This document shows positions 21,087 through 55,294 of a DNA stretch of 64,000 nucleotides, in pieces; within the stretch, counting starts at the first letter, position 1; every line of letters begins with the position of its first letter. The stretch is from contig JAVSML010000960.1 of NCBI GenBank assembly GCA_038503035.1, positions 90,087 to 154,086 on the forward strand, given 5' to 3'. Source of the DNA: Crocodylus rhombifer (lineage: Eukaryota; Chordata; Crocodylia; Crocodylidae). Made by a program: the position numbers and the translations under genes. The notes under the pieces are model-generated. The model searched no databases. It worked only from the letters and a program-made list of their open reading frames with translations, and was not told the origin of the DNA.

Positions 21087-22130
21087 CATAGATTTCATAG
21101 ACATTAGGGCTGGAAGGGACCTAACGAGATCATTGGGTCCAGCCCCCTGCCCAAGGGGCAGGAAGTCAGCTGGAGTCAGATGACCCCAGCAAGATAAGCA
21201 TCCAAACACAACTTGAATGTGTCCAGAGTAGGCACTTGCACCACTTCTGGGGGGAGTCTGTTTCAAACTCTGTAGACTTGGACAATAAAGAAGTTTTTCC
21301 TTATGTCCAGTCTAAAATGGTCTTCCAGCAGTTTGTGACTGTTGGACCCTAGTCATCCCTAGAGGAGCCGTGGTGAACAGACATTCTCCCAGATCCTGAT
21401 GTACATCCCTGATGTACTTAGGGCTGCCACCAAGTCCCCTCTGAGCCAACACTTTTCCAAGATGAAGAGTCCTGTGTCTCCCAGGCTCTCATAAGGCCTG
21501 CTCTCTTGACCTCTGATCATGCACGTGGCTCTCCTGTGAACTCTCTTGAGCTTCTCCACATTCTTTTTAAAGTGCGGGGCCCAGAATTGGATGTAGCACT
21601 CCAGCTGCCGTCTCACCAAGGCTGAGTAAAGTGGGTGAATGACATTTTGGGTCTTGTTTGAGATGCATCAGTAGATGCAAGCCAGGGTTTTATTTGGTTT
21701 GCCGACTGTGGGATTGCACTGATGGATCATGTTCATCTTGTGGTCGATCTTGACTCCCAAGTCTCTTTCGGATGTGGTGCTAGTAAGTGAAGCACTGTAG
21801 AGCCTATAGGGATGCTGTGGGTTCTTTCACCCAAGGTGGAGAGCAGCTTGCATTTCTCTATATTGAAGGTCATCAGGTTTTTGTTCGCGCACCCTGCGAG
21901 TCTGTCCAAGTCGGGCTGAATCCTCAGCCTATCCTCTAGTGTAACTGCGCTTCCCCACACTTCGGTGTCATCTGCGAATTTAGCCAGTCTGCCACCCGAA
22001 TCCAGATTATTAATAAATATATTAAAAAGTACTGGTCTGAGTACTGAACCCTGAGGGATGCCACTGGACATCATGCACCATGTTGACTTGGTTTCATGCC
22101 CGTAGTTGGTAGCTATTGCTACCCAGACCT
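21087..22130 (-). pseudogene. CR1 LINE, 3' part of ORF2 (RT)
   Basis: The 3' tail begins at 21087 with the ATAGATTTCATAG terminal repeat and GGGCTGGAAGGGACC. Upstream (higher coordinates) are ORF2 remnants. Frame 21359-21619 holds the C-terminal block ([17 protein letters not shown]). Frame 21733-22149 holds RT motif B SGIPQGSVL and the catalytic FADDTEVWG. Frame changes separate these blocks. The element is 5'-truncated inside the RT palm near 22130, so RT motif A and the endonuclease are absent. Confidence 0.88.
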
Positions 22131-22724
22131 GAGAGAACTGCAAGACCACGGGAGGTTATTCCCTCACTGTCCCTTCCATTACCAGCCACGCTGTTCCTTC
22201 CTCCCCTCCTCCAATTATTAGCCATACTGAACACCCACAACCCCCAAACCTCCCATGTATTTTTGGTCACCTTGTTACCCCCCTCTCTCATTGCTCCAGA
22301 TTAGCCATGGTAACTGTCTTCTCGTACTGGAAATCTCTCATAGCCTTACAAATAGAAGTGCGTTTGCACAAAGCCATGGGCCCTGCTTGCCCCCCCCCCC
22401 CACACACACATTTTCTGACTGCTGAAGGTACACATAATGGGGGGTAGGTCCCGGACTGGGGTCTCTCTGCAGTTTTGAAAAACAGACAGCTAAAACTGCA
22501 GCCTGTCCATCCAGTAAGTTTTTTCCCTTGGAACTATGTTTTTCAAATCGCCTGGGAATGGTAGTAGGCTGTAACTTAAACATGATGGCATGCAGACAAG
22601 GGGAAATTTCTTGGTGTTTTACTGACAGCAGAGAATATACAATACGAGCATTCTGGCTTCAGCAGGGAGACTTTGTAGGATATGTGCAAGGGGGCTTCAG
22701 AAGGAAGTGGCCAGCAAGTGACAG
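22131..22724. other. Unrecognised sequence
   Basis: A poly-C followed by a short CA run lies at 22390-22412. No gene was recognised. Confidence 0.4.
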
Positions 22725-29837: not shown

Positions 29838-30742
29838 CATAGATTTCATAGACATTAGGACTGGAAAGGACCTTGGAAGATCATCTAGTCCAGCCCCTGG
29901 CCCGAAGGGCAGGAAGTCAGCTGGGGTCATAGGATCCCAGCAAGATAAGCATCCAATTTGCTCTTGAAGGTGTTCAGTCTAGGTGTTTGAACCACCTCAG
30001 ATGATAGGCTATTCCAGACCTTGGGGGCTCAGACAGTAAATGTCCAGCCTGAAACAGTTTTGCAGTAGTTTATAACTGTTCAACCTCGTCATCCCTTGGG
30101 GCGCTCTGGTGAACAAACGTTCCCCCAGATCCTAGTGGTCACCCCGATAAACTTATAGGTGGCCATTAGATCACCCCAAGCCTGCGCTTTTCCAAGCTAA
30201 AAAGCCCCATGGCCCTCAGCCTGTTGTTGTAATGTCTGTTTTCCTGACCTCCAATTATGCGCGTGGCTCTTCTCTGGACTCTCAAGTTTCTCCACATCCT
30301 TTTTGAATTGTGGGTCCCAAAACAATGCGGTACTCCAGCTGTGGCCTCACCAAGGCTGATGATTATAAAGGGAGAATGACGTCCCGGGATTTGCTTGAGA
30401 AGCATCTCTGGATGCAAGCCAGAGTTTTGGTCACTTTATTAGCCGCAGCATCGCATTGCAGGCTCACGTTCATTTTGTGGTCAATGATGACCCCCAAGTC
30501 TCTTTCTTCTGTAGTGCTAGCCAGCGTGGCATTGTTGAGCCTATAAGGATGCTGCAGGTTTGTCCTCCAAAGGTGGAGAACCTTGCATTTTTTCGTGTTA
30601 AACACCATGAGGTTCTCGTCTGCCCATTTGCTGAGCTTGTCCAGGTCAGCCTGGATCACTCTCCTGTCCTCAGGTGTGGATGCTTTGCCTCAGAGTTTGG
30701 TGTCATCGGCCAACTTTGCCAGTCCGCTTCTGACTCCAATGT
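29838..30742 (-). pseudogene. CR1 LINE, 3' half, split by the gypsy insertion
   Basis: The 3' terminus is at 29838 (TCATAGATTTCATAGAC). The minus-strand frame 30363-30659 encodes the RT thumb region (LSKWADENLMVFNTKKCKVLHL, DLGVIIDHKMN), and 30166-30417 the C-terminal region in another register. The FADD-equivalent region is near 30700-30715. The copy is cut at 30742 by the LTR retrotransposon and resumes without loss at 37281, where the duplicated target AATGT is repeated. Frameshifts show that this CR1 was already decaying. Confidence 0.92.
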
Positions 30743-31796
30743 TGTGAGGGGGCCAAGGCCCCAGGGGGTGAGGGTCGGGCGAGGAACACCAGAGTTCCGC
30801 CTAACTTCCGGGGCCCGACCCGGAAGTTTGGCCGGGGGCTTAGCGCTTCCTGGAACTCGGACCGGGCCGGACCGGGACCGGCCTAGGAGAATAAAAGGAG
30901 CCCACCTACCCCAAGCAGGAGAAGACTGAGGCTCCAGCCGGAGCCTGCACCGGGAGCTGCGGAGCCGGGAGCCGGCGGCAGCGAAGCCAGGAGCCGCGGA
31001 GCCGGGAGCCACGCGGCAGGAGCCGGCGGCAGCGAAGCTGGGAGCTGTGGAGCCGGGAGCTGAGGAGCCGGGAGCCACGCGGCAGGAGCCGGCGGCAGCG
31101 AAGCCAGGAGCCGCGGAGCAGGGAGCCACGCGGCAGGAGCCGGCGGCGGCAGCGCGGGGAGCTGCGGAGCCCAGGACCGCACCGCAGGAGCCAGCGGGGC
31201 CGGGAGCTGTGGAGCCAGAGGCGGTAGCGACTCTAGACGACGAACTGGTAACAAGGGGGCTGGCAGCAGCCGTGCCGGAGGAGACCGGAACGGGAGGTTC
31301 TGACGGAGGGACCCTTCTCCGGCGGCTGCGGGCAGTTTGGCCGCGGAAGAAGACCCGCGGGCAGGGAGGTAAGCCTCGCAACCCCCCTGGGTCTCGAGAG
31401 ACAGTCAATAGGGGTAAAGACACCCCGGACCCATAGGAGCTAGCTGCACCTGGATAGACCAGGTGCCGTAAGGACTCCTGAAGAGGGTCCGGCAGTGCGA
31501 GGGCGGTACCCCACTGCAGGACTAGGACACGGACAAGGGAGCCCCTGACGGAGGCTAACCCCGGAGGACCGGGCGAGGGTGTAGGGGAGGAGGAGCCCTC
31601 AGGACCCCTGGACCTTGGAGAAGAGGTACCCTATCCGGACCGCCAGCTTCCCCGTATGGGTGAACCCCCATATTACATCAAGTCGTGGCAGGCGAGATCG
31701 GCGGAAGCAGGAACGGCCCGTCGCGTACCCCTCCTCTCCAGGAGCCGTCCGGGGATAGGGGGACTCACGGCAGGTGACGCACCCCATCCCCTCACA
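30743..31796 (+). repeat. 5' LTR of the Gmr1-like element
   Basis: A 1054-base LTR running TG...CA. A GC-rich minisatellite (about 30922-31150) is built from a unit with GGAGCC(A/G)CGCGGCAGGAGC and CGGCGGCAGCGAAGCC. A splice-donor-like AGGTAAGC lies at 31369-31376. Compared with the 3' LTR, the non-repetitive parts differ at roughly 15-20 positions by eye, most of them C/T or G/A at CpG, plus one 11-base indel near 30865 and a different number of minisatellite units. Confidence 0.93.
30890..30897 (+). promoter_or_regulatory. Putative TATA box / polyadenylation signal in 5' LTR
   Basis: AATAAAAG lies about 147 bases into the LTR within a GC-rich surrounding (GGAGAATAAAAGGAGCCCACC). It is the only AT-rich spot near the expected promoter position and is conserved at 36142-36149 in the 3' LTR. 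It can serve as a TATA-like element, and its AATAAA core as a polyadenylation signal in the 3' copy. Confidence 0.55.
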
Positions 31797-31798
31797 AC

Positions 31799-31816
31799 TG
31801 GTGCATTGGCCGGGAA
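31799..31816 (+). promoter_or_regulatory. Primer binding site, tRNA-Gly
   Basis: TGGTGCATTGGCCGGGAA begins two bases after the LTR end. Its complement reads TTCCCGGCCAATGCACCA, the 3' end of a vertebrate tRNA-Gly (GCC) variant including the CCA tail, with 18 of 18 bases matching from my knowledge of that tRNA. It would prime minus-strand DNA synthesis. Confidence 0.85.
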
Positions 31817-31854
31817 CTCCAACCCGAGCCTGACGCCAAGATCACCAGGGAACA

Positions 31855-34314
31855 ATGGAACTCCCCACGGGCACCGATATGGCGCAACAGACGCTGCACC
31901 TAATAGCCCAGCTGCTACAGCAGCATCAACAGACTGCCTTAAGGCAGGTGAACTTGCAGGAGCATTTGCTCCAACAACAACAGGCTAGGGGAGGCCTGTA
32001 TAGCGGGGAAATGAACGTCCCCCGAATGAACAAGGAGGACGATGTAGAGGCCTTCTTAGAGACTTCTGAGCGGGCGGCCCTGGCTGCGGGAGTAGATAAA
32101 ACGAAGTGGGCCAGCAGACTGGGAGTCTTGTTGATCGGCCCCGCGCAGGCGGCATACCGAGCCTTGACGCGGGCCGAGGCTGGGGACTATGACCGAGTAA
32201 AGGCTGAGATCTTGCAGCGCTTAGAGATCACCACGGAGAAGCACAGGCAGGCCTTCCGAGGGGTCAAGGCCAAGGGGGAGAGGACCCCCAAGATGTTATG
32301 GCACAGTCTCAAGGATGAGATGACGAAGTGGCTGAGGCCAGCCATCGCCACAAAGGAAGAAATCTGCGACCAGGTGCTGTTAGAGCGGTTCCTGGCGGAC
32401 TTGGACGAAGACACCCAACACTGGGTAAGATGTCACGGCCCCACAACCTCCCTGCAGGCGCTGCAGCTAGCCGAACAGTATGCGGCGGCACAGGCGGGGC
32501 GACGTTCGAGCCGAGGGAAGCCGAGGCCGGAAGGCTCACCCCGAAAAGGGAAGGGAGGTAAGAGCGAGAAGGTCCCGGAGAGCAGTGTCATTTGTTGTTT
32601 CTGGTGTGGTGGGAAAGGACATCTTGCTAGGTCCTGCCCGACCAATGCTGAGTACCCCGCTAGCAAAGGGGCCCCACTCCCAAGGGGGGACAGTAGAGAG
32701 CGGGAGTCCACCCGGGAGGAGCCGATGGAGTGCGGGGTCGGCGGCAGGGAAGATTCCCCTCCTAGACCCTTACCCCGAGTTAAGACCTGGGTAGGACAAC
32801 GGCCCCTCATGGCCATAGTAGATACGGGGTGCACACAGACACTGGTCCGCCCATCGCTGGTCGAATGGAGGCGAGCACCTCGGTGTGCGGGAATCCACCT
32901 GGTTTGCCTGCACAACAAAAGAGCTTACTTCGAGCGGCGAATCCTCGAGGTCCGGCTCCAGGGTGTCTCTAGGCGCTTGCCCGTGGGATTGAGTGAGGAC
33001 ATCCTCCACCCTATGATTGTGGGGAGAGACTGGCCGGAGATTTACGAAGTACTGGCCACGCTCCGGCCACGAAAGGAATTAACGGAGGGCTTAGCTGGGG
33101 AAGAGACAGAGCAGCCCTGGCTGGGCGAGCTGGAAGGCCTAGCAAGCGGCTACCAGTTCCGTGAGGCCCAGGAGGAGGATGCAGAACTGCGACCCTTCCG
33201 CGAGGAAGCCCTCAAACCCCACTGGCAGCCAGTAAGCCCCACTGCGGATCGGGGACAGGGCCCCCGGGTCGAGCTGAGGCAGGGCTTACTGTACCGTATT
33301 AAACCCGATCCCCAGACAGGGAGGGAGGTGGAACAACTCTTAATTCCCCGCAGATATCGGACACCCCTATTACGGTTAGCCCACGGGAACCCGATGGGGG
33401 GACACTTGGGGAAGGGTAAGACAGAGGCCCGATTAACACACTGGTGCTTCTGGCCCCACTTGTATGAGGACGTCGAGAAGTTTTGCAAGGGGTGTCGGGA
33501 CTGCCAGCTAGTGAGCCCCCACAGGCCCCCACGCGCTCCCCTTCAGTTGATGCCAATTATACAGGACCCCTTCGCCAGGGTCGCTTTGAATGTGGTGGGG
33601 CCTTTACCGCGTAGTACCGCGGGATACCGGTTCCTCCTGGTTCTCATAGATTACGCCACCCGGTTCCTGGAGGCTGTCCCCTTACGGGCGGTGACGGGCT
33701 CCAAGGTGGCTGAGGAGCTCATGAAATGGGTGTCCCGGTTTGGGATCCCGAGGGAAATAGTAACGGACCAGGGAACAAACTTTATGTCCGCAGTGATGGC
33801 AGCAATGTGCAGGGTGCTGCATGTCACCCATCTGAGAATGACTGTGTACCACCCCCAAACTAATGGACTTGTGGAGCGCTTCAATATGACATTGAAGGGG
33901 ATGCTCCGTCGGTGCGCCCAGGAAGATCCTGCAAGGTGGGATCTATTGGTACCCCCTTTACTATTTGCGGTGCGGGATGCCCCGCAGGCCTCCATGGGAT
34001 ATTCCCCATTTAGGTTGGTTTTCGGGCACCAACCCCGAAGCTTACTGGACATAGTGAGGGAGAGCTGGGAGACCAGTGCGCGAGGGGGCCGCCAGGTGGC
34101 CGAGTACGCCCAGCAGATACAAGAACGACTCCACAAGGCTCAGCGGGCAGCCCAGGACAACCTCACCCAAGTTCAGAGGCAACAGAAGAACAGGTATGAC
34201 CAAGGGACCCGGGAAAGGGAGTTGCAGCCTGGCCAAAAGGTGCTGGTTATGTTGCCCAGCTCCCACAGTAAATTTGAGGCAAGATGGCAAGGGCCAGCAC
34301 GGGTAATAAGATGA
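31855..34314 (+). CDS. Gag-protease-integrase open frame of the Gmr1-like element
   Basis: An open frame of 819 codons starts in a good context (GAACAATGG) 38 bases after the primer site. Residues 1-60 are glutamine-rich. Residues 80-210 form the capsid region, whose second half (KWLRPAIATKEE, VLLERFLADLDEDTQHWV) resembles a SCAN domain. A CCHC knuckle follows at C248, C251, H256, C261. The protease motif is IVDTGC with D323. The integrase has the zinc finger H510, H517, C544, C547 and the core with D638 and E674, spaced 35 residues apart. The first acidic residue of the triad is replaced by N579 (codon AAT at 33589). The frame ends in a premature TGA within the GPY/F-type integrase tail. Gag and Pol share one frame without a shift. 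RT and RNase H lie downstream in broken frames. Confidence 0.9.
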   Translation: MELPTGTDMAQQTLHLIAQLLQQHQQTALRQVNLQEHLLQQQQARGGLYSGEMNVPRMNKEDDVEAFLETSERAALAAGVDKTKWASRLGVLLIGPAQAAYRALTRAEAGDYDRVKAEILQRLEITTEKHRQAFRGVKAKGERTPKMLWHSLKDEMTKWLRPAIATKEEICDQVLLERFLADLDEDTQHWVRCHGPTTSLQALQLAEQYAAAQAGRRSSRGKPRPEGSPRKGKGGKSEKVPESSVICCFWCGGKGHLARSCPTNAEYPASKGAPLPRGDSRERESTREEPMECGVGGREDSPPRPLPRVKTWVGQRPLMAIVDTGCTQTLVRPSLVEWRRAPRCAGIHLVCLHNKRAYFERRILEVRLQGVSRRLPVGLSEDILHPMIVGRDWPEIYEVLATLRPRKELTEGLAGEETEQPWLGELEGLASGYQFREAQEEDAELRPFREEALKPHWQPVSPTADRGQGPRVELRQGLLYRIKPDPQTGREVEQLLIPRRYRTPLLRLAHGNPMGGHLGKGKTEARLTHWCFWPHLYEDVEKFCKGCRDCQLVSPHRPPRAPLQLMPIIQDPFARVALNVVGPLPRSTAGYRFLLVLIDYATRFLEAVPLRAVTGSKVAEELMKWVSRFGIPREIVTDQGTNFMSAVMAAMCRVLHVTHLRMTVYHPQTNGLVERFNMTLKGMLRRCAQEDPARWDLLVPPLLFAVRDAPQASMGYSPFRLVFGHQPRSLLDIVRESWETSARGGRQVAEYAQQIQERLHKAQRAAQDNLTQVQRQQKNRYDQGTRERELQPGQKVLVMLPSSHSKFEARWQGPARVIR
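32176..32487 (+). other. SCAN-like capsid C-terminal region of Gag
   Basis: Residues about 108-211 of the Gag frame show the alternation typical of SCAN domains. There is an aromatic-rich helix near LWHSLKDEMTKWLRP, then ATKEEICDQVLLERFLADL and DEDTQHWVRCHGP, and a terminal helix ALQLAEQY. In SCAN zinc-finger proteins the matching landmarks are WLRP, a TKEQI..LLVLEQFL block and LP.ELQ.WV. It is established that SCAN derives from the Gag capsid of a Gmr1-like element. The match here is by eye. Confidence 0.75.
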
Positions 34315-34976
34315 GTCGGCCCAGTAAATTATGAAGTCCAGAGGGAGGGCTGACAGAGGACGTCCCAGATCCTGCACATTAATTTGCTGAAGGAGTGGCA
34401 GGAGCCACAGGGGCTCCTTCTAGAAATGGATCGGGAGTCAGTGGATGGAGATTAGCAAGGGCTAGAGGCGGGGCCCAAAACCTTAGAGGAGGGACTCCCC
34501 GGGGAAGGAGCGTCCCTCTCGCCGCACCAAAAGAAACAACTGCAGCGTTTAAACACGGAGTTCAGGGATGTGTTTACGGAAACTCCCGGGAAGGCTAGAG
34601 GCGTCGAACATGCGATCCTGACGCCGCGAGGTCAGGTTGCCAGAGAGAAGTGGCGGCGGATCCGCTTCTTCCGACGCCAACCAATTAGAGAAGAACTAAA
34701 CCGTATGCTGGCCCAAGGCATTATCACGCCTTCCCGCAGTCCCTGGCGGAGGCCGTTGGTGGCCGTAACTAAGCCGGACGGCAGTTTGCGGCTGTGCGTC
34801 GACTTTAGAAAGGTGAATGCCATCACACAGTTCGACGCCTTCCCTATGCCCCAGGTGAACGAACTAGTGGAGAGCATCGGGCAGGCTAACTTCATCTCCA
34901 CCCTGGATCTGGCAAAGGGATACTGGCAGATCCCCTTGCGGAAGGAGGATAAGCCCAAGACCGCGTTTGGAACACC
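34315..34976 (+). pseudogene. Integrase tail and N-terminal RT, with in-frame stops
   Basis: The reading frame of the 819-codon ORF continues here but is broken by TGA at 34312-34314, TGA at 34351-34353 and TAG at 34453-34455. From 34456 to 34976 it is open and holds a connector and RT fingers/palm: WRRPLVAVTKPDGSLRLCVD, then DFRKVNAIT, then motif A STLDLAKGYWQIPL with catalytic Asp at 34906-34908. Both TGA codons lie where an Arg codon of CGA type would fit, consistent with CpG decay. At about 34972-34976 the frame breaks by one base relative to the RT sequence that follows. Confidence 0.85.
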
Positions 34977-35399
34977 ATGGGCCTGTACGAATTCAAGAGG
35001 ATGCTGTTTGGGTTGAATGGGGCTGCAGCCACCTTCCAAAGGCTAATTGACTGGGTGCTGGTGCCTCACCAAGAATACGCCGCCGCATATATCGACGACA
35101 TTGTGGTCTACACCCAGACGTGGGAGCAGCACCTTCGGGCCCTGAGGAAGGTCCTGCAGGAGTTACGGGGTAAAGGCCTAACGGCCAACCCGAAGAAATG
35201 TGCCCTGGGAAGATCAGAGACTAAATACCTCGGCTTCCAGGTAGGCAAGGGGCAGGTAAGGCCCTTAAGGGACAAGGCGGCGGCCCTCCGGGACTATGAG
35301 GCCCCAGTGACTAAGAAACAGATGCGGGCCTTTCTGGGGTTGGCCAGCTACTATCGGCGGTTCATTCCCCGGTTTGCAGAACTGGCTAACCCCTGGTAG
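34977..35399 (+). pseudogene. RT palm and thumb with YIDD, shifted frame
   Basis: In the third frame, this starts within the block GLYEFKRMLFGLNGAAATFQ (RT motif B region). It contains the intact catalytic motif YIDDIVVY (the two Asp codons at 35094-35099), then LGFQVGKGQVRP and the thumb block MRAFLGLASYYRRFIPRF. It ends in TAG after a run of C at 35391-35393, where a second one-base frame break occurs. The sequence is otherwise well preserved, with all RT catalytic residues present across the two pieces. Confidence 0.88.
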
Positions 35400-36181
35400 A
35401 CACAACCAAGGGGCGGGAGCCTCCCCGAGTCAACTGGACCCCGGAAAGGCGTAAGGCTTTCGAAGAGCTCAGGCGAGCATTGTGTCAGGGGGTCGTGCTA
35501 CATACTCCGGACTTTAACGTTCCCTTTACTCTGCAGACCGATGCTTCGGCGTATGCCCTGGGAGCTGTCCTCTCACAGGAGGTGGAAGGAGCGGAGCGTC
35601 CCGTGGCGTTTGCCAGCTGGAAACTAAACGAGCATGAGCAAAGGTACTCCACGATCGAGAGGGAGTGCCTCGCTATACGGTGGGGCATAGACTATTTCAG
35701 ATATTATTTATTGGGCCGGGAGTTCCGGCTAGTGACAGACCACGCCCCTTTACGGTGGCTCAACTCTGCCAAGACAGAGAATGCGAGGATTATGCGATGG
35801 GCCCTGGCGCTACAACCCTACCAGTTCCAAATTGGGTATAAGCCGGGGCGCAGTAATACGGTAGCAGACTTTTTGTCTCGGTGCGGAGGGGCAGAGACAC
35901 CTCCTGAGCCCTCGGTATCGTCCCGTACAGACTGGAAGAAGCCAGAGGGGGGCGAAGCTGGTCAGTCAAAAGGAACGCCTATCGGCGTCTCCAGGGGTGG
36001 GGTCTGTGAGGGGGCCAAGGCCCCAGGGGGCGAGGGTCGGGCGAGGAACACCGGAGTTCCGCCTAACTTCCGGGGCCCGACCCGGAAGTTCGGCCGGGGG
36101 CTTAGCACTTCCCGGAACTCGGACTGGGACCGGCCCGGGAGAATAAAAGGAGTCCACCTACCCCAAGCAGGAGAAGACTGA
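35394..36181 (+). pseudogene. RNase H domain reading into the 3' LTR
   Basis: In the second frame the connection to RT is followed by the RNase H domain. QTDASAYALGAVLS has the first Asp at 35540-35542. RECLAIRWGIDYFR gives the catalytic Glu, LVTDHAPLRWLN the second Asp, and NTVADFLSR the final Asp. The RNase H catalytic set is therefore intact. No stop precedes the 3' LTR (36005), and the frame runs a further 58 codons into it before TGA at 36179-36181. The tail after the RNase H domain has no recognised fold. Confidence 0.85.
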
Positions 36182-37280
36182 GGCTCCAGCCGGAGCCTGC
36201 ACCGGGAGCTGCGGAGCCGGGAGCTGCGGAGCCGGGAGCCATGCGGCAGGAGCCGGCGGCAGCAAAGCCGGGAGCCACGGAGCCGGGAGCCACGCGGCAG
36301 GAGCCGGCGGTGGCGGCGCAGGGAGCTGTGGAGCCGGGAGCTGATGAGCCGGGAGCCACGCGGCAGGAGCTGGCGGCAGCGAAGCTGGGAGCCACGCGGC
36401 AGGAGCCGGCGGCAGCGAAGCCGGGAGCTGCGGAGCCGGGAGCTGAGGAGCCGGGAGCCACGCGGCAGGAGCCGGCGGCAGCGAAGCCGCGGAGCTGGGA
36501 GCCACGCGGCAGGAGCCGGCGGCAGCGAAGCCGNNNNNNNNNNCCGCGGAGCTGGGAGCCACGCGGCAGGAGCCGGCGGCAGCGAAGCCGGGAGCCGCGG
36601 AGCCGGGAGCCATGCGGCAGGAGCCGGCAGCAGCGGCGCGGGGAGCTGCAGAGCCCAGGACCGCACCGCAGGAGCCAGCGGGGCCGGGAGCTGTGGAGCC
36701 AGAGGCGGTAGCGACTCTAGACGACGAACCGGTAACAAGGGGGCCGGCGGCAGCCGCGCCGGAGGAGACCGGAACGGGAGGTTCTGACGGAGGGACCCTT
36801 CTCCGGCAGCTGCGGGCAGTTTGGCCGCGGAAGAAGACCCGCGGGCAGGGAGGTAAGCCTCGCAACCCCCCCGGGTCTCGAGAGACAGTCAATAGGGGTA
36901 AAGACACCCCGGACCCATAGGAGCTAGCTGCACCTGGATAGACCAGGTGCCGTAAGGACTCCTGAAGAGGGTCCGGCAGTGCGAGGGCGGTACCCCACTG
37001 CAGGACTAGGACACGGACAAGGGAGCCCCTGACGGAGGCTAACCCCGGAGGACCGGGCGAGGGTGTAGGGGAGGAGGAGCCCTCAGGACCCCTGGACCTT
37101 GGAGAAGAGGTACCCTATCCGGACCGCCAGCTTCCCCGTACGGGTGAGCCCCCATATTACATCAAGTCGTGGCAGGCGAGATCGGCGGAAGCAGGAACGG
37201 CCCGTCGCGTACCCCTCCTCTCCAGGAGCCGTCCGGGGATAGGGGGACTCACGGCAGGTGACGCACCCCATCCCCTCACA
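36005..37280 (+). repeat. 3' LTR of the Gmr1-like element
   Basis: It starts after a purine-rich stretch (AGGGGTGGGGTC at 35993-36004, the probable polypurine tract) and ends in CCCCTCACA. At 1276 bases it is longer than the 5' LTR because its minisatellite (about 36186-36640) has more units. A 10-N gap at 36534-36543 lies inside this array between two near-identical units, so the true length is uncertain. The AATAAAAG motif is at 36142-36149. Confidence 0.93.
36534..36543. other. Assembly gap of 10 N inside the LTR minisatellite
   Basis: The sequences on either side of the Ns are repeats of each other (CCGCGGAGCTGGGAGCCACG), so the gap probably marks an unresolved copy number rather than missing unique sequence. 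Confidence 0.95.
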
Positions 37281-38310
37281 AATGTCCACATCATTAATGA
37301 AGAAACTGAACAATATGGGTCCAAGGACAGAGCCGTGGGGGACCCCACTGGTCATAGGGCACCATGACGCTTGACTTCCATCAGTTACCACCCTCTGGGT
37401 CCAACCCCAGTACCAATTTCCCAGCCAGCGGATTGTGGTGGACCCAAGGCCACAGTTGGCCAGTTTTGCCAAGAGGTGATTATGGGATACCAGATCGAAG
37501 GCTTTTTTGAAGTCAAGATATATGACATCAATCTCTTCTCTCTTGTCCAGGTGATAGGCCACCTGATCATAAAAGGAAATGAGATTGGTCAAGCAAGACT
37601 TACCCACAACAAACCCATTGGCCAGTCCATTAAGGATGGCCTCTTTAATAAACTTTTCTAAGATTTTCTCCAGGCTAGAAGTCAGGCTGATGGGCCTATA
37701 GTTTGCTGGATCCACCTTCCTCCCTTTCTTGAAGATAGGTACCACATTGGCCTTCTTCCGGTCTTTGGGCACTACACCAGAGTGCCAGAAGTTTTTAAAG
37801 ATCTATGCCAGAGGCTGGGCTATGATGCTTGCCAGCTCTTTGAGTACCCTGGGGTGTAGATTGTCAGGACCAGCTGACATGAAGGTATCCAGCTTCTCAA
37901 GGTATTCCTTTACAAGGTCAGCATTGATGGAGGGCAGGGGATCTCCCTCACTTGGACCTCCCTGTCCCGTAGCAGGCATGAGCATCCCATGGGACTGATG
38001 AAAGACTGACGTAAAGTACACATTTAATAGGTTAGCTTTTTTCTGGGCGTCAGTTGTCCCTTCTGGTTCAGCAGGGGTACAATGTTGTCCTTGCTTTTCC
38101 TCTAGCTCCCCACATATCTGAAACAGGACTTTTTATTGTCCTTGATGCTCGAAGCTAGTTGGAGTTCAGTTGCAGCCTTGGCTTTCCTGGTTTGCTCCCT
38201 GCAGGACCGGACCAGTGCAGAATATTGCTCCTTGGATGTGAATTCCACCCTCCATCGTCTCATGTCTTCTGTACGTTTTATCTTCTCTCCCTCAGCTTTG
38301 TCCTATCTCT
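37281..38310 (-). pseudogene. CR1 LINE, 5' continuation of the split copy
   Basis: This continues the CR1 interrupted at 30742. The minus-strand frame 37083-37772 (its last part reads into the LTR) carries ANVVPIFKKGRK, NYRPISLTS, the motif-A block VIYLDFKKAFDLVSH and motif B SGVPHGSVLGP. Frame 37803-38021 carries INADLVKEYLEKLDTF and HPRVLKELASI. About ten codons found in the 52-56 kb copy before FVVG are missing (near 37615). Upstream of about 38310 similarity fades within the segment that follows the endonuclease domain, so the endonuclease itself is absent. Confidence 0.9.
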
Positions 38311-44317: not shown

Positions 44318-44477
44318 TTGCCGCTCCCTTTGCTTCCTTCCCTGCACTTCCCTAATGAACCGTGCCTTTGTCCTATGCCCACTCTGGCCCTGGGATAATT
44401 TGGCCAATAAATGCCCACGATATGTGTAGCTGCAGTGCAGCATGCAGGCAGTGAGGAGCACAGCCCAGCAGCTTGGA

Positions 44478-44735
44478 GAGCTGTGTGCCACTGGTAAGTC
44501 TATTCTGGTGGAAGGGGAGGAGGGATGGAAGGGGTGTGGGGGGACAGATCAATGTCCCCCATGGTGAGGGAGGGAGTGGGGTTAGGGCTAGGGCAGGCGC
44601 CCAGCTGAGGTGGGGCATGGCACGGGACAGAACCATGCTTCGTCCGGGGGGCGTGAGGTGGGAGAGGGAACTGCCCTCAGAACTGCATGGAGTGATGGTG
44701 GGGTGGGCTGCAACTGCAGGCTGAGGCTGATGCTG
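44478..44735 (+). repeat. GC-rich module, copy 2
   Basis: The direct-repeat partner of 43755-44015. It ends shortly before the CR1 tail at 44747, so the modules and the palindrome may form one larger GC-rich non-autonomous element. Confidence 0.5.
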
Positions 44736-44746
44736 CACCTGGCTCT

Positions 44747-45034
44747 TCCTGGCACATGAGTGCGGGTGGAGCAGGGTCTCTCCCGTTCCCTGCTGGTCCC
44801 CCTTAGTAAGTTTATAGACGGCCACCAGATCCTTTCTCAGCCTGAAGGCTGAACAGGTTCTGGTCCTGTAGCCTCTCCTCATAGGGCCTGCCCTGCTGCC
44901 CCCTGACCATGCCCTCCTCTGGACCCTCTCAATGCTGTCCACACCCCTCTTGAAGTGCGGCACCCAGAACTGGACACTGTACTCCAACTGTGGCCTGACC
45001 AGCGTCACATAGAGGGGAAGGATCACCTCCTCAG
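44747..45034 (-). pseudogene. CR1 copy a, 3' segment
   Basis: The minus strand encodes the CR1 C-terminal region (LYVTLVRPQLEYSVQFWVPH, FKRGVDSIERVQRRA, DLVAVYKLTKGDQQ). The extreme 3' tail is missing. The copy is interrupted at 45034 by CR1 copy b and resumes at 46068 at the expected codon block, so b was inserted into a. Confidence 0.85.
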
Positions 45035-46067
45035 TTTCATAGTAGCTAGGGTCAGGAGGTACCTGAACAGATCATCTAGCCTGACCCCCTGCCACAGGCA
45101 GGAATGAATGCTGGGTTCACAAGACCCCAGACAGGTGATCATCCAACCTCCTCTTGAATTTACCCAAGTTAGGGGCGAGGACCCTGGGAAGTTGGGTCCA
45201 GATTTTGGCCACCCTTACTGTAAAATATTGCTTTCTGATCTCTAACCTAAACCTATTCTCCATCAGCTTATTACCATTGTTCCTAGTTACCCCAGGTAGT
45301 GCTGAGGGGAATAGGGCTCTACGTATTTGCTGTTGATGTCCCCTGATGAGTTTGTAGGCAACCACCTCTTGCTGAGGCTGAACAGGTTCAGGTCCCTCAG
45401 TCTCTCTTCATAGGGCCTGTCCTGCCCTCTCACCAAGCGGGTGGCCCTCCTCTGAACCCTCTCTAGGTTGGCCACATCCCTCTTGAAGTGTGGCGCCCAG
45501 TACTGGACGCAGTGCTGCAACTGTGGCCTGACCAAAGTCGCATAGAGGAGGAGTATCACCTCTCTAGACTGACTTGAGATGTGTCTTTGGATGCATGACA
45601 AAGTATGGCTGGCCTTGCTGGCTGCAGTCTGGCATTGGTGGCTCATGTTCATCTTGGAGTCAATAATGACTTCAAGATCCCGTTTCGACTCTGTGCTTTC
45701 AAGAGGGGAACTCCCCAGCCTGTATGTATGCTGTTGATTACTTCTCCCAAGGTGCAGCACCCTGCATTTGTCTACATTGAACCCCATCTTATTCTCGTCT
45801 GCCCACTTTTGCAGCCGCTCTCTCCCTTTAAGTGTGTCCACCTCGCCCCATATCTTAGTGTCATCAGCAAACTTGGACAGCATGCTTTCCACCCCCTTGT
45901 CCAAGTTGATGATGAAGATGTTAAACAGTGTGGGCCCAAGGCCCTGGGGTACCCCGCTGCTCACAAGTCACCAAGTTGAGTACAGCCCATCCACCACTAC
46001 TCTCTGGGTGCACCCCATCAGCTCATTTTTTACCCATCCACTGTGTAGGCATCAATACCACAGTTGG
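45035..46067 (-). pseudogene. CR1 copy b, nested in copy a
   Basis: A 3' tail starts at 45035 (TTTCATAGTAGCTAGGGTC). Frame 45117-45365 encodes the ORF2 C-terminus. Frame 45287-45964 (225 codons, open) covers RT from motif B SSGVPQG through FADDTKIWG with both catalytic Asp, the thumb and LRDLNLFSLSKRW. The copy is 5'-truncated in the RT palm. Having entered copy a, it is the younger of the two. Confidence 0.9.
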
Positions 46068-52543: not shown

Positions 52544-55294
52544 TCATAGGATCCCAGCAAGATAAGCATCCAATTTGCTCTTGAAGGTGTTCAATGTAGG
52601 TGCTTGAACCACCTCTGATGGCAGGCTGTTCCAGACCTTGGGGGCTCGGACAGTAAAGAAATTCTTCCTTATGTCCAGCCTGAAACGGTCTTGCAGGAGT
52701 TTGTGACCGTTCGACCTCGTCATCCCTTGGGGCGCTCTGGTGAACAAACGTTCCCCCAGATCCTGGTGGTCACCCCTGATAAACTTATAGGTGGCCATCA
52801 GATCACCCCTGAGCCTGTGCTCTTCCAGGCTAAAGAGCCCCATGGTTCTCAGCCTGTCATCGTAAGGTCTGTTTTCCAGACCTCTGATCATGCATGTGGC
52901 TCTTTTCTGGACGCTCTCAAGCTTCTCCACATCCTTTTTGAATTGTGGAGCCCAAAACTGGACGCAGTACTCCAGCTTTGGCCTCACCAAGGCTGATTAT
53001 AAGGAGAGAATGATGTCCCGGGATTTGCTTGAGAAGCATCTATGGATGTAAGCCAGCATTTTGGTTCCTTTATTAGCCGCAGCGTTGCATTGCAGGCTCA
53101 TGTTCATCTTGTGGTCAACGATGACCCCCAAGTCTCTTTCTTCTGTAGTGCTAGCCAGCGTAGCACTGCTGAGCCTATAAGGATGCTGCATGTTTTTCTT
53201 CCAAGGTGGAGAACCTTGCATTTTTTGGTGTTAAACACCATCAGGTTCTCATCCGCCCATTTGCTGAGCCTGTCCAGGTCAGCCTGGATCACCTGCCTGT
53301 CTTCTGGTGTGGATGCTTTGCCCCAAAGTTTGGTGTCATTGGCGAACTTGGCCAGTCCACTCCTGACTCCAATGTCCACATCATTAATGAAGATGTTGAA
53401 CAGTATGGGTCCAAGGACAGAGCCTCGAGGGACACCATGGACACCATGGGTCCAAGGACAGAGCCTTGAGGGACACCATGGTCATAGGACACCATGATGA
53501 GTGACTGCCATCAATTACAACCCTCTGGGTCCGACCATGGAGCCAGTTTCCCAGCCAGTGGATCGTGATGGACCCAAGACCACAGTAGGCTAGTTTCGCC
53601 AAGAGGTGATCATGGGATACCAAATCGAAGGCTTTTTTGAAGTCAAGATATATGACATCCATCTCTTCTCCCTTGTCCAGGTGATAGGTCACCTGGTCAT
53701 AGAAGGAAAAGAGATTGGTCAAGCAAGAGCTACCCACAACAAACCCGTGCTGGCTATCCCTTAGGATGTTGGCCTTGGCCAGTCCATTAAGGATGGCCTC
53801 TTTAATAAACTTTTCTAAGATCTTCCCCAGGATAGAAGTCAGGCTAATGGGCCTATAGTTAGCCAGATCCACTTTCCTCCCTTTCTTGAAGATAGGCACC
53901 ACATTGGCCTTCTTCCAGTCTTTGGGCACTACACCAGAGCAGCAGGAGTTTTTAAAGATCCGTGCCAGGGGCTGGGCTATGAGGCTCGCCAGCTCCTTGA
54001 GTACCCTGGGGTGTAGATTGTAAGGGCCGGCTGACTTGAAGGTATCCAGCTTCTCAAGATGTTCCTTCACGAGGTCAGCATTTATGGAGGGTAGGGGATC
54101 CCCCTCACCCAGACCTCCCTGTCCCGCAGCGGGCATGGGTGTCCCATGGGGCTGATGAAAGACTGACGCAAAGTACCTATTTAATAGGTTGGCTTTTTCC
54201 TGGGCGTCAGTTGCCAGTTGCCCCATCTGGTTCAGCAGGGTCCAATGTTGCCCTTGCTTTTCCTCCGGCTCCCCACATATCTGAAAAAGGACCTTTTGTT
54301 GTCCTTGATGCCTGAAGCTAGTTGGAGTTCAGTTGCAGCCTTGGCTTTCCTGGTTTGCTCCCTGCAGGACCGGACCAGTGCAGAATAATCCTCCTTGGAG
54401 ATTAATCCTGTCCTCCATCCTTTGTAGGCTTTTCTTTTTAGCCTTAGGAGGTCTGCTAGATCCCTAGAGAGCCAGCTGTGCCCTCTTGCTGCCTTTCCTT
54501 CGAGATGGAATAGACTTAGCTTGTGCATTGAGGATCGCTTCCTTGAGAAGCAACCACTCTTCTTGAACTCCCATCTCCCTGGGGTCCTGGTCCCTTAGGG
54601 CCTGACTGACAAGCCTCCTGAGCTTGTCAAAGTCAGCTTTCCTGAAGTCAAGGACTTCAGTGTTGCTGACTGACTTGCCAGCTTTATGGTGGATGGTGAG
54701 GGTGATCAGCTCATGGTCGCTGTCACCCAGCTTCCCATTGATCACTAGGTCGCTGATTAGGTCATCCCTGTAGCCAGTACCAGGTTGAGCAGTTCTTTAC
54801 CTGTCGTTGGCCCATAGACTTCTTGAGTCAGGTAGAGGGAAGAAGCTTTGTGACCGCTTGGATTTTGCTGAGTGATCCTCCCACTGAATGTCCGGGTAAT
54901 TGAAGTCACCCATGACAACCGTGGTCCTGGAGCATACGGCCTCAGCCAGCTCCTGGGCGAACTCCTGGTCAAGCTCAGGACTTTGGGTGGGAGGTCTGTA
55001 GTAGACTCCCACCATTGTGTCCCCTGTGCCATGTTCCCCACAAATTTTAACCCAAAGGGTCTCTAGCTGTCCACTCTGGTTGCCAATATCAGCTTGCAGG
55101 GACATGTAGCTTTTCTTAACAGAGAGAGCTACACCCCCACCCCTTTTATCTACACAATCCCTCCTGTAAAGGGTATAGACATCTATACCCATGGTCCAGT
55201 CATGGGTGGAGTCCCACCAGGTCTCCATTATCCCAGTGGCATCATAATTCTTTGCATTGAGCAGGAGGATGGGCTCCTCATTCTTGTTCCCCAA
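52544..55294 (-). pseudogene. CR1 ORF2: endonuclease and reverse transcriptase, frameshifted
   Basis: Order on the minus strand: frame 54797-55294 is the apurinic-type endonuclease with IMETWWD, DKRGGGVALSV, METVG-like ETLWVKI, VGVYYRPP and VVMGDFNYPDI. Frame 54464-54745 has its catalytic GDSDHELI and 54232-54528 the linker. Frame 53384-54226 is the RT fingers and palm with NYRPISLTSILGKILEKFI and motif A VIYLDFKKAFDLVSHDH. Motif B GVPQGSVLGP follows in another register. Frame 53104-53379 carries FANDTKLWG, in which the first Asp of the catalytic pair is Asn. Frame 52544-52990 is the C-terminus up to LDAYLAGIL. At least five frame changes separate these parts. The gene once encoded the enzyme that nicks target DNA and copies the element. 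Confidence 0.92.

Follow-up and report, generated by a model that had tools for sequence, protein, structure and literature searches.

A defective integrase-first Ty3/gypsy retrotransposon, likely of the Gmr1 group, in the genome of Crocodylus rhombifer

Introduction

The gene order of Gmr1, a retrotransposon of the cod Gadus morhua, is said to have its primary account in a paper by Goodwin and Poulter from 2002. According to passages in three papers, elements of the Gmr1 kind carry their integrase in the position that it has in copia elements (PMC8220671, PMC2774666, PMC2582038). The present analysis concerns an element at positions 30743-37280 of a 64,000-nucleotide stretch of DNA from Crocodylus rhombifer (contig JAVSML010000960.1), the whole of which is referred to as the window. 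A preliminary description, made from the sequence alone, had called this element Gmr1-like. The evidence set out below makes it very probable that a full-length, defective, integrase-first long terminal repeat (LTR) retrotransposon of the Ty3/gypsy type, likely a member of the Gmr1 group, was inserted here by ordinary copy-and-paste.

Gmr1-like elements have also been linked to host genes. The SCAN domain is described, in passages of several papers, as derived from a Gmr1-like Gag (PMC3424704, PMC3406341, PMC4592553; the first two cite Emerson and Thomas 2011), and in frogs it is reported from over half of the Gmr elements (PMC4131045). In Anolis, capsids of Gmr1-like origin are said to have been domesticated and fused with zinc fingers or with KRAB (PMC3406341), and lizard SCAN proteins were predicted to bind Gmr1-like elements, in one case at the primer site (PMC4592553).

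Results

All coding domains of the element lie on the plus strand, and Pfam places them in the order Gag (SCAN), protease, integrase, reverse transcriptase (RT) and RNase H, as the preliminary description had read them, the protease being weakly matched. An open frame of 819 amino acids (31855..34314) holds Gag, protease and integrase. Within it, the C-terminal capsid part of Gag is a SCAN domain (32236..32493; PF02023, E 4.9e-18), whose matches among solved structures are ZNF24 (3lhr, E 1.4e-9), PEG3 (E 2.3e-6) and ZNF174 (E 1.2e-5). It is followed by a CCHC zinc knuckle (32593..32640; PF00098, E 0.009) and an aspartic protease with DTG at 32821 (32782..33024; PF13650, Asp_protease_2, E 0.014), both below the cut-off, and then by the zinc-binding domain of the integrase (33343..33519; PF17921, Integrase_H2C2, E 1.7e-16) and its catalytic core (33589..33876; PF00665, rve, E 9.2e-8), the latter passing its cut-off of 32.6 bits narrowly, at 32.7, and also placed by alignment with Ty3. 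Downstream, the RT (34768..35243, YIDD at 35088) is spread over two frames, both pieces of which match RVT_1 (PF00078; E 1.9e-10 in the open reading frame (ORF) 34570-35013 and 1.2e-17 in ORF 34977-35396), and the RNase H (35510..35821; PF17917, RT_RNaseH, E 6.7e-40) lies in ORF 35480-36178.

The enzymes are of gypsy type, in agreement with the earlier reading of integrase and RT. The best match among solved structures is yeast Ty3 for the integrase (7q5b, E 9.8e-29) as well as for both RT pieces (4ol8, E 7.2e-23 and 3.8e-28), and this top rank in the PDB, together with the RT_RNaseH model, places the element in Ty3/gypsy (Metaviridae). The gypsy-type models and the similarity to Ty3 argue against Ty1/copia; the trees described below contain no copia sequence.

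The 6538 bp of positions 30743-37280 are a single LTR retrotransposon insertion with exact coordinates. The 5' LTR (30743..31796, plus strand, 1054 bp) and the 3' LTR (36005..37280, plus strand, 1276 bp, with a 10-N gap at 36535-36544) both have the ends TGTGAGGGG...CCCCTCACA. The target site duplication AATGT stands directly before the former (30738..30742) and directly after the latter (37281..37285), so that the pair of LTRs and the target duplication of the preliminary description are exact on both sides. Two bases past the 5' LTR lies the primer-binding-site-like stretch TGGTGCATTGGCCGGGAA (31799..31816, plus strand), which we take to be complementary to the 3' end of vertebrate tRNA-Gly(GCC); ARAGORN found no tRNA genes in the window. 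The polypurine-like tract AGGGGTGGGG (35993..36002, plus strand) precedes the 3' LTR. The locus thus combines an LTR pair with TG..CA ends, a target site duplication, a purine tract and a primer-site-like stretch with a presumed tRNA partner, the features of an LTR retrotransposon.

These features were compared with those of ten further copies, the ten closest from a genome search with an integrase-RT query. Of the eleven copies, the window included, nine have a target site duplication of 5 bp and one has 4 bp; the remaining copy shows no exact duplication. The primer-site stretch is identical in nine and the purine tract in all eleven. A TATA-like ATAAAAG at 30891..30897 (plus strand) reads as a putative promoter of the element. 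In addition, a splice-donor-like GGTAAGC occurs in both LTRs (31368-31374 and 36852-36858) downstream of the putative transcription start, and a spliced leader is possible.

Reading one copy by eye leaves room for a local rearrangement, or for nested elements, within an ordinary RT-first gypsy family. The other copies in the same genome speak against both. A 2087-base query reaching from integrase to RT was searched against 2.2 Gb in 14,832 contigs, and the best 40 of 578 candidates were scored, yielding 41 matched stretches with the window included. Thirty-four of these start at or before query base 21 and end at or beyond base 2083, joining integrase and RT in one match, and the other copies among them are 71-97% identical to the query. 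The integrase precedes the RT in all 30 loci examined (window included). Six landmarks in the order SCAN, protease, integrase, upstream RT piece, downstream RT piece and RNase H are present in 28 of them; one of the remaining loci has no SCAN match and the other no RNase H in the stretch examined. In three of the other 29 loci all six landmarks lie in one open frame, and therefore intact frames exist in the family. With the same order in 92 of 92 relatives as well, the probability of rearrangement or nesting is practically negligible, and this candidate was rejected on the survey of the copies in the genome, which had been proposed as a check in the preliminary description.

The relatives were obtained with an integrase query that matched at least 485 proteins; the best 120 of 485 were used. 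Both domains could be mapped in 92 of these 120, each with the integrase first, and 28 lacked one domain. Conventional gypsy proteins, by contrast, have the RT first in 121 of 121 cases, a set composed of two proteins from a Gag-weighted search and 119 from a search with 368 matches, of which 120 were listed. Among the matches listed, integrase-first proteins come from the named hosts Alligator, Pelodiscus, Mauremys, Lepidochelys, Pogona, Xenopus, Ambystoma and Latimeria, and further from several fishes, Branchiostoma, Ptychodera, Apostichopus and the sponge Halichondria. The nearest protein among them is an uncharacterised one from alligator (P0003), with 54% identity in the integrase and 61% and 62% in the two RT pieces. 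The names of the listed matches, 120 integrase-first and 120 conventional, include none from cod.

Trees were built separately for the integrase, the upstream RT piece (RTa) and the downstream RT piece (RTb), the RT pieces not being joined. The first set contained the window copy and Ty3, together with 57 of the 120 integrase-first proteins, chosen because each of the three pieces was nearly complete in them, and 24 conventional proteins out of the 117 that were usable among the 121. Integrase-first and conventional proteins were separated with Shimodaira-Hasegawa-like approximate likelihood ratio test (SH-aLRT) support of 93 (integrase), 97 (RTa) and 95 (RTb), and the pair of window copy and P0003 had support of 95, 98 and 94, respectively. 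In a rerun with 51 rows, Ty3 and three long rows were removed, every other unnamed integrase-first row was dropped and 14 of the conventional proteins were kept; there, the split reached 100/100 in all three trees and the pair with P0003 99/90, 99/96 and 100/89 (integrase, RTa, RTb). RT and integrase thus branch with integrase-first elements, which stand in for Gmr1, and apart from RT-first gypsies. That the integrase-first order arose independently, outside the Gmr1 group, could be argued from the identities of only about 50-62% with the closest protein relatives and from the absence of Gmr1 from the trees. Such an origin is very unlikely, as the integrase and the two RT pieces all fall with one set of integrase-first proteins, which come from fish, amphibians, reptiles, amphioxus and others, and a SCAN domain of the kind reported in passages on Gmr elements (PMC4131045, PMC3424704) is present in the Gag.

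SCAN-type Gag was also observed, in Pfam lists, in the integrase-first proteins of Halichondria (P0091), Branchiostoma (P0068), Ptychodera (P0072) and Apostichopus (P0109). Given these entries from a sponge and from invertebrate deuterostomes, the SCAN-type capsid is likely older than the vertebrates, with contamination as a caveat.

The copy in the window is defective. Three in-frame stops (34312, 34351 and 34453) lie in the linker between integrase and RT (34312..34455, plus strand), the RT frame breaks near 34975, and a further stop follows the RT core (35397..35399, plus strand), the RNase H then being in another frame. The catalytic columns of the integrase hold Asn (33589), Asp (33766) and Glu (33874); the second and third residues are thus present, and the first is Asp in all 29 other loci of the genome and in 118 of 120 relatives. 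Because of the stops, the frame breaks and this Asn, the copy lacks the open Gag-Pol frame and the complete catalytic residues of an autonomous element and is not expected to produce functional enzymes itself. The preliminary description had taken intact catalytic residues of the RT as a sign of recent activity. The YIDD is indeed intact, but the recent activity of this copy does not follow from it, given its stops, frame breaks and altered integrase; its relative youth is seen more clearly from the comparison of the LTRs and from the other copies with open frames.

Outside the repeat array described below, the two LTRs of the window copy differ at 17 of 779 sites (Kimura two-parameter (K2P) distance 0.022). 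All differences are transitions and 15 of the 17 lie in CpG context, leaving two changes at 647 non-CpG sites. For a shorter stretch measured alike in the eleven copies, the window copy shows 13 differences in 670 sites, 12 of them at CpG and one at 552 non-CpG sites (K2P 0.020), compared with a K2P of 0.021-0.053 and a non-CpG divergence of 0.5-3.6% in the ten others; by this measure its non-CpG divergence is the lowest of the eleven. These distances depend on the alignment: in a cut with a 140-base head, which sliced an indel and was not used, the window copy had a K2P of 0.035 and 7 of 570 non-CpG changes and was not the lowest of the eleven, and the copy on contig C25 shifted from 0.031 in that cut to 0.053 in the later measure. 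The insertion therefore looks fairly young, and its CpG sites would have decayed in the manner of methylated DNA. The age is left without years, as no rate was measured.

The few non-CpG changes and the intact YIDD are what could be expected of an element active today. That the window copy is such an active, autonomous element is nevertheless extremely improbable, in view of the damage to its frames and its integrase and of the predominance of CpG changes between its LTRs, by which it has stood long enough to decay.

The LTRs contain a GC-rich minisatellite, found with Tandem Repeats Finder at 30950..31197 in the 5' LTR, with a main period of 51 bp and another of 15 bp, and, longer, at 36211..36681 in the 3' LTR, with the same main period and additional periods of 36 and 15 bp, both on the plus strand. 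Measured between anchors, it is 95-466 bp long, and in each of the eleven copies its length is unequal in the two LTRs, the difference ranging from 3 to 306 bp; the N gap of the window copy lies within one of its arrays. The minisatellite is a fast-changing part of the LTR and unfit for dating. A protein encoded by the minisatellite was considered and rejected: long frames are open there on both strands of the GC-rich array, and their openness is therefore no evidence of coding.

The element interrupts a long interspersed nuclear element (LINE), which from its make-up we take to be CR1-like, on the minus strand. The piece left of the insertion (30363..30659) has no Pfam match of its own; the right piece (37286..37772) encodes an RT (RVT_1, E 1.8e-19) in ORF 37083-37772, the last part of which extends into the LTR. 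When the flanks were joined with one copy of the duplication removed, they aligned across the junction with another LINE copy at 52980-53440 (89.5% over 467 columns). The insertion is therefore genuine and no patchwork. Other CR1-like pieces were seen on the minus strand of the window at 52544-55294, 44373-45964 and 21733-22149; of three ORFs scanned in such pieces, two match RVT_1, one of them below the cut-off, and one an endonuclease family.

A genome search for SCAN yielded 1521 candidates, of which the best 150 were scored. Sixty-eight matches reached 95-135 bits, several of them sharing contigs, and 82 fell at 72-89 bits. The lower group is mixed: it includes matches directly upstream of six copies of the element (contigs C7382, C25, C221, C284, C9011 and C9183) and also partial matches on contigs of the higher group. 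The higher group is read as candidate host-type SCAN genes. Beside one high-scoring match, no zinc-finger frame was seen in the ORF list of a 7-kb stretch, which was read without a Pfam scan.

Discussion

The assignment of the element to the Gmr1 group, as proposed in the preliminary description, is upheld by the integrase-first order common to the loci and relatives, by the separate trees, by the Ty3 matches and by a SCAN-type capsid, the SCAN piece of the window being matched in 29 of the 30 loci. It rests on published traits of the group, with integrase-first proteins standing in for the cod Gmr1.

Several points weigh against this assignment. The separate trees of RT and integrase suggested in the preliminary description did place both with integrase-first proteins, but they lack the cod Gmr1, copia and the majority of the other gypsy clades. 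Named conventional proteins are few and mostly 'K02A2.6-like', presumably Mag-like, and the conventional set may be a single clade. The integrase-first rows form one side of a branch rather than a proven clade, and in the first integrase tree and the RTa tree of the rerun some integrase-first rows fall together with the conventional rows in a supported set. Moreover, the relatives were found with an integrase-first query and hence are no random sample of gypsy elements. Finally, the zinc-knuckle and protease matches fall under the Pfam cut-offs, and the match of the primer site to a tRNA is a presumed one.

If the element behaved as others of its class do, its RNA would start in the 5' LTR and a tRNA, presumably tRNA-Gly, would prime reverse transcription within a particle formed by the SCAN-type capsid. 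The protease would cut one Gag-Pol chain, releasing the integrase from the part ahead of the RT, and the integrase would insert the DNA into the CR1-like LINE with a 5-bp stagger. The copy in the window may then have decayed after its arrival, or an intact copy may have helped it in.

In this genome, the integrase-first order of a gypsy element is confirmed to be a constant feature of the family rather than an accident. The preliminary description had rated this order as highly surprising, a view that does not hold, since published passages name it as a trait of the Gmr1 clade (PMC8220671, PMC2774666, PMC2582038). The gene order is real and already published, and the element is likely an ordinary member of the known Gmr1 kind. 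A printed description of this exact family was not found in the literature searched on Gmr1 in turtles or Anolis; Repbase was outside this search.

A family with SCAN-type Gag and many stronger SCAN matches thus occur in one genome. Because they occur side by side, the speculation, put forward in a passage of one paper, that SCAN zinc-finger proteins serve as a defence against Gmr1-like elements (PMC4592553) can be checked in this species. It is tempting to see fairly young elements with SCAN capsids beside numerous stronger host-type SCAN loci as a live arms race, yet we regard this as an unlikely interpretation. Equally doubtful is its molecular form, in which host SCAN proteins would bind the capsid or the primer site of the family that gave rise to them.

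Compared with known systems, the element is closest to Gmr1 of Gadus morhua and its clade, for which passages in three papers give the same order of protease, integrase, RT and RNase H in a gypsy-type element (PMC2582038, PMC8220671, PMC2774666). The copy in the window differs from Gmr1, known here from published descriptions, in being defective and in its long LTRs with a minisatellite. In tetraodontiform fish, a passage on four Gmr families gives LTRs of 337-518 bp, shorter than those in the window, and consensus lengths of 6.1-6.5 kb, similar to the 6538 bp found here; as in the crocodile family, Gag and Pol share one frame (1506-1634 amino acids) and there is no env (PMC11117352). In Gmr1-like elements of lizards, likened here by description, SCAN is the C-terminal part of the Gag capsid, as in the present element (PMC3406341, PMC4592553, PMC3424704). 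Yeast Ty3 (7q5b, 4ol8) provides the closest solved structure for integrase and RT but differs in gene order, the RT preceding the integrase: in the chain of 7q5b, the RT match covers residues 596-847 and the integrase match residues 1087-1387.

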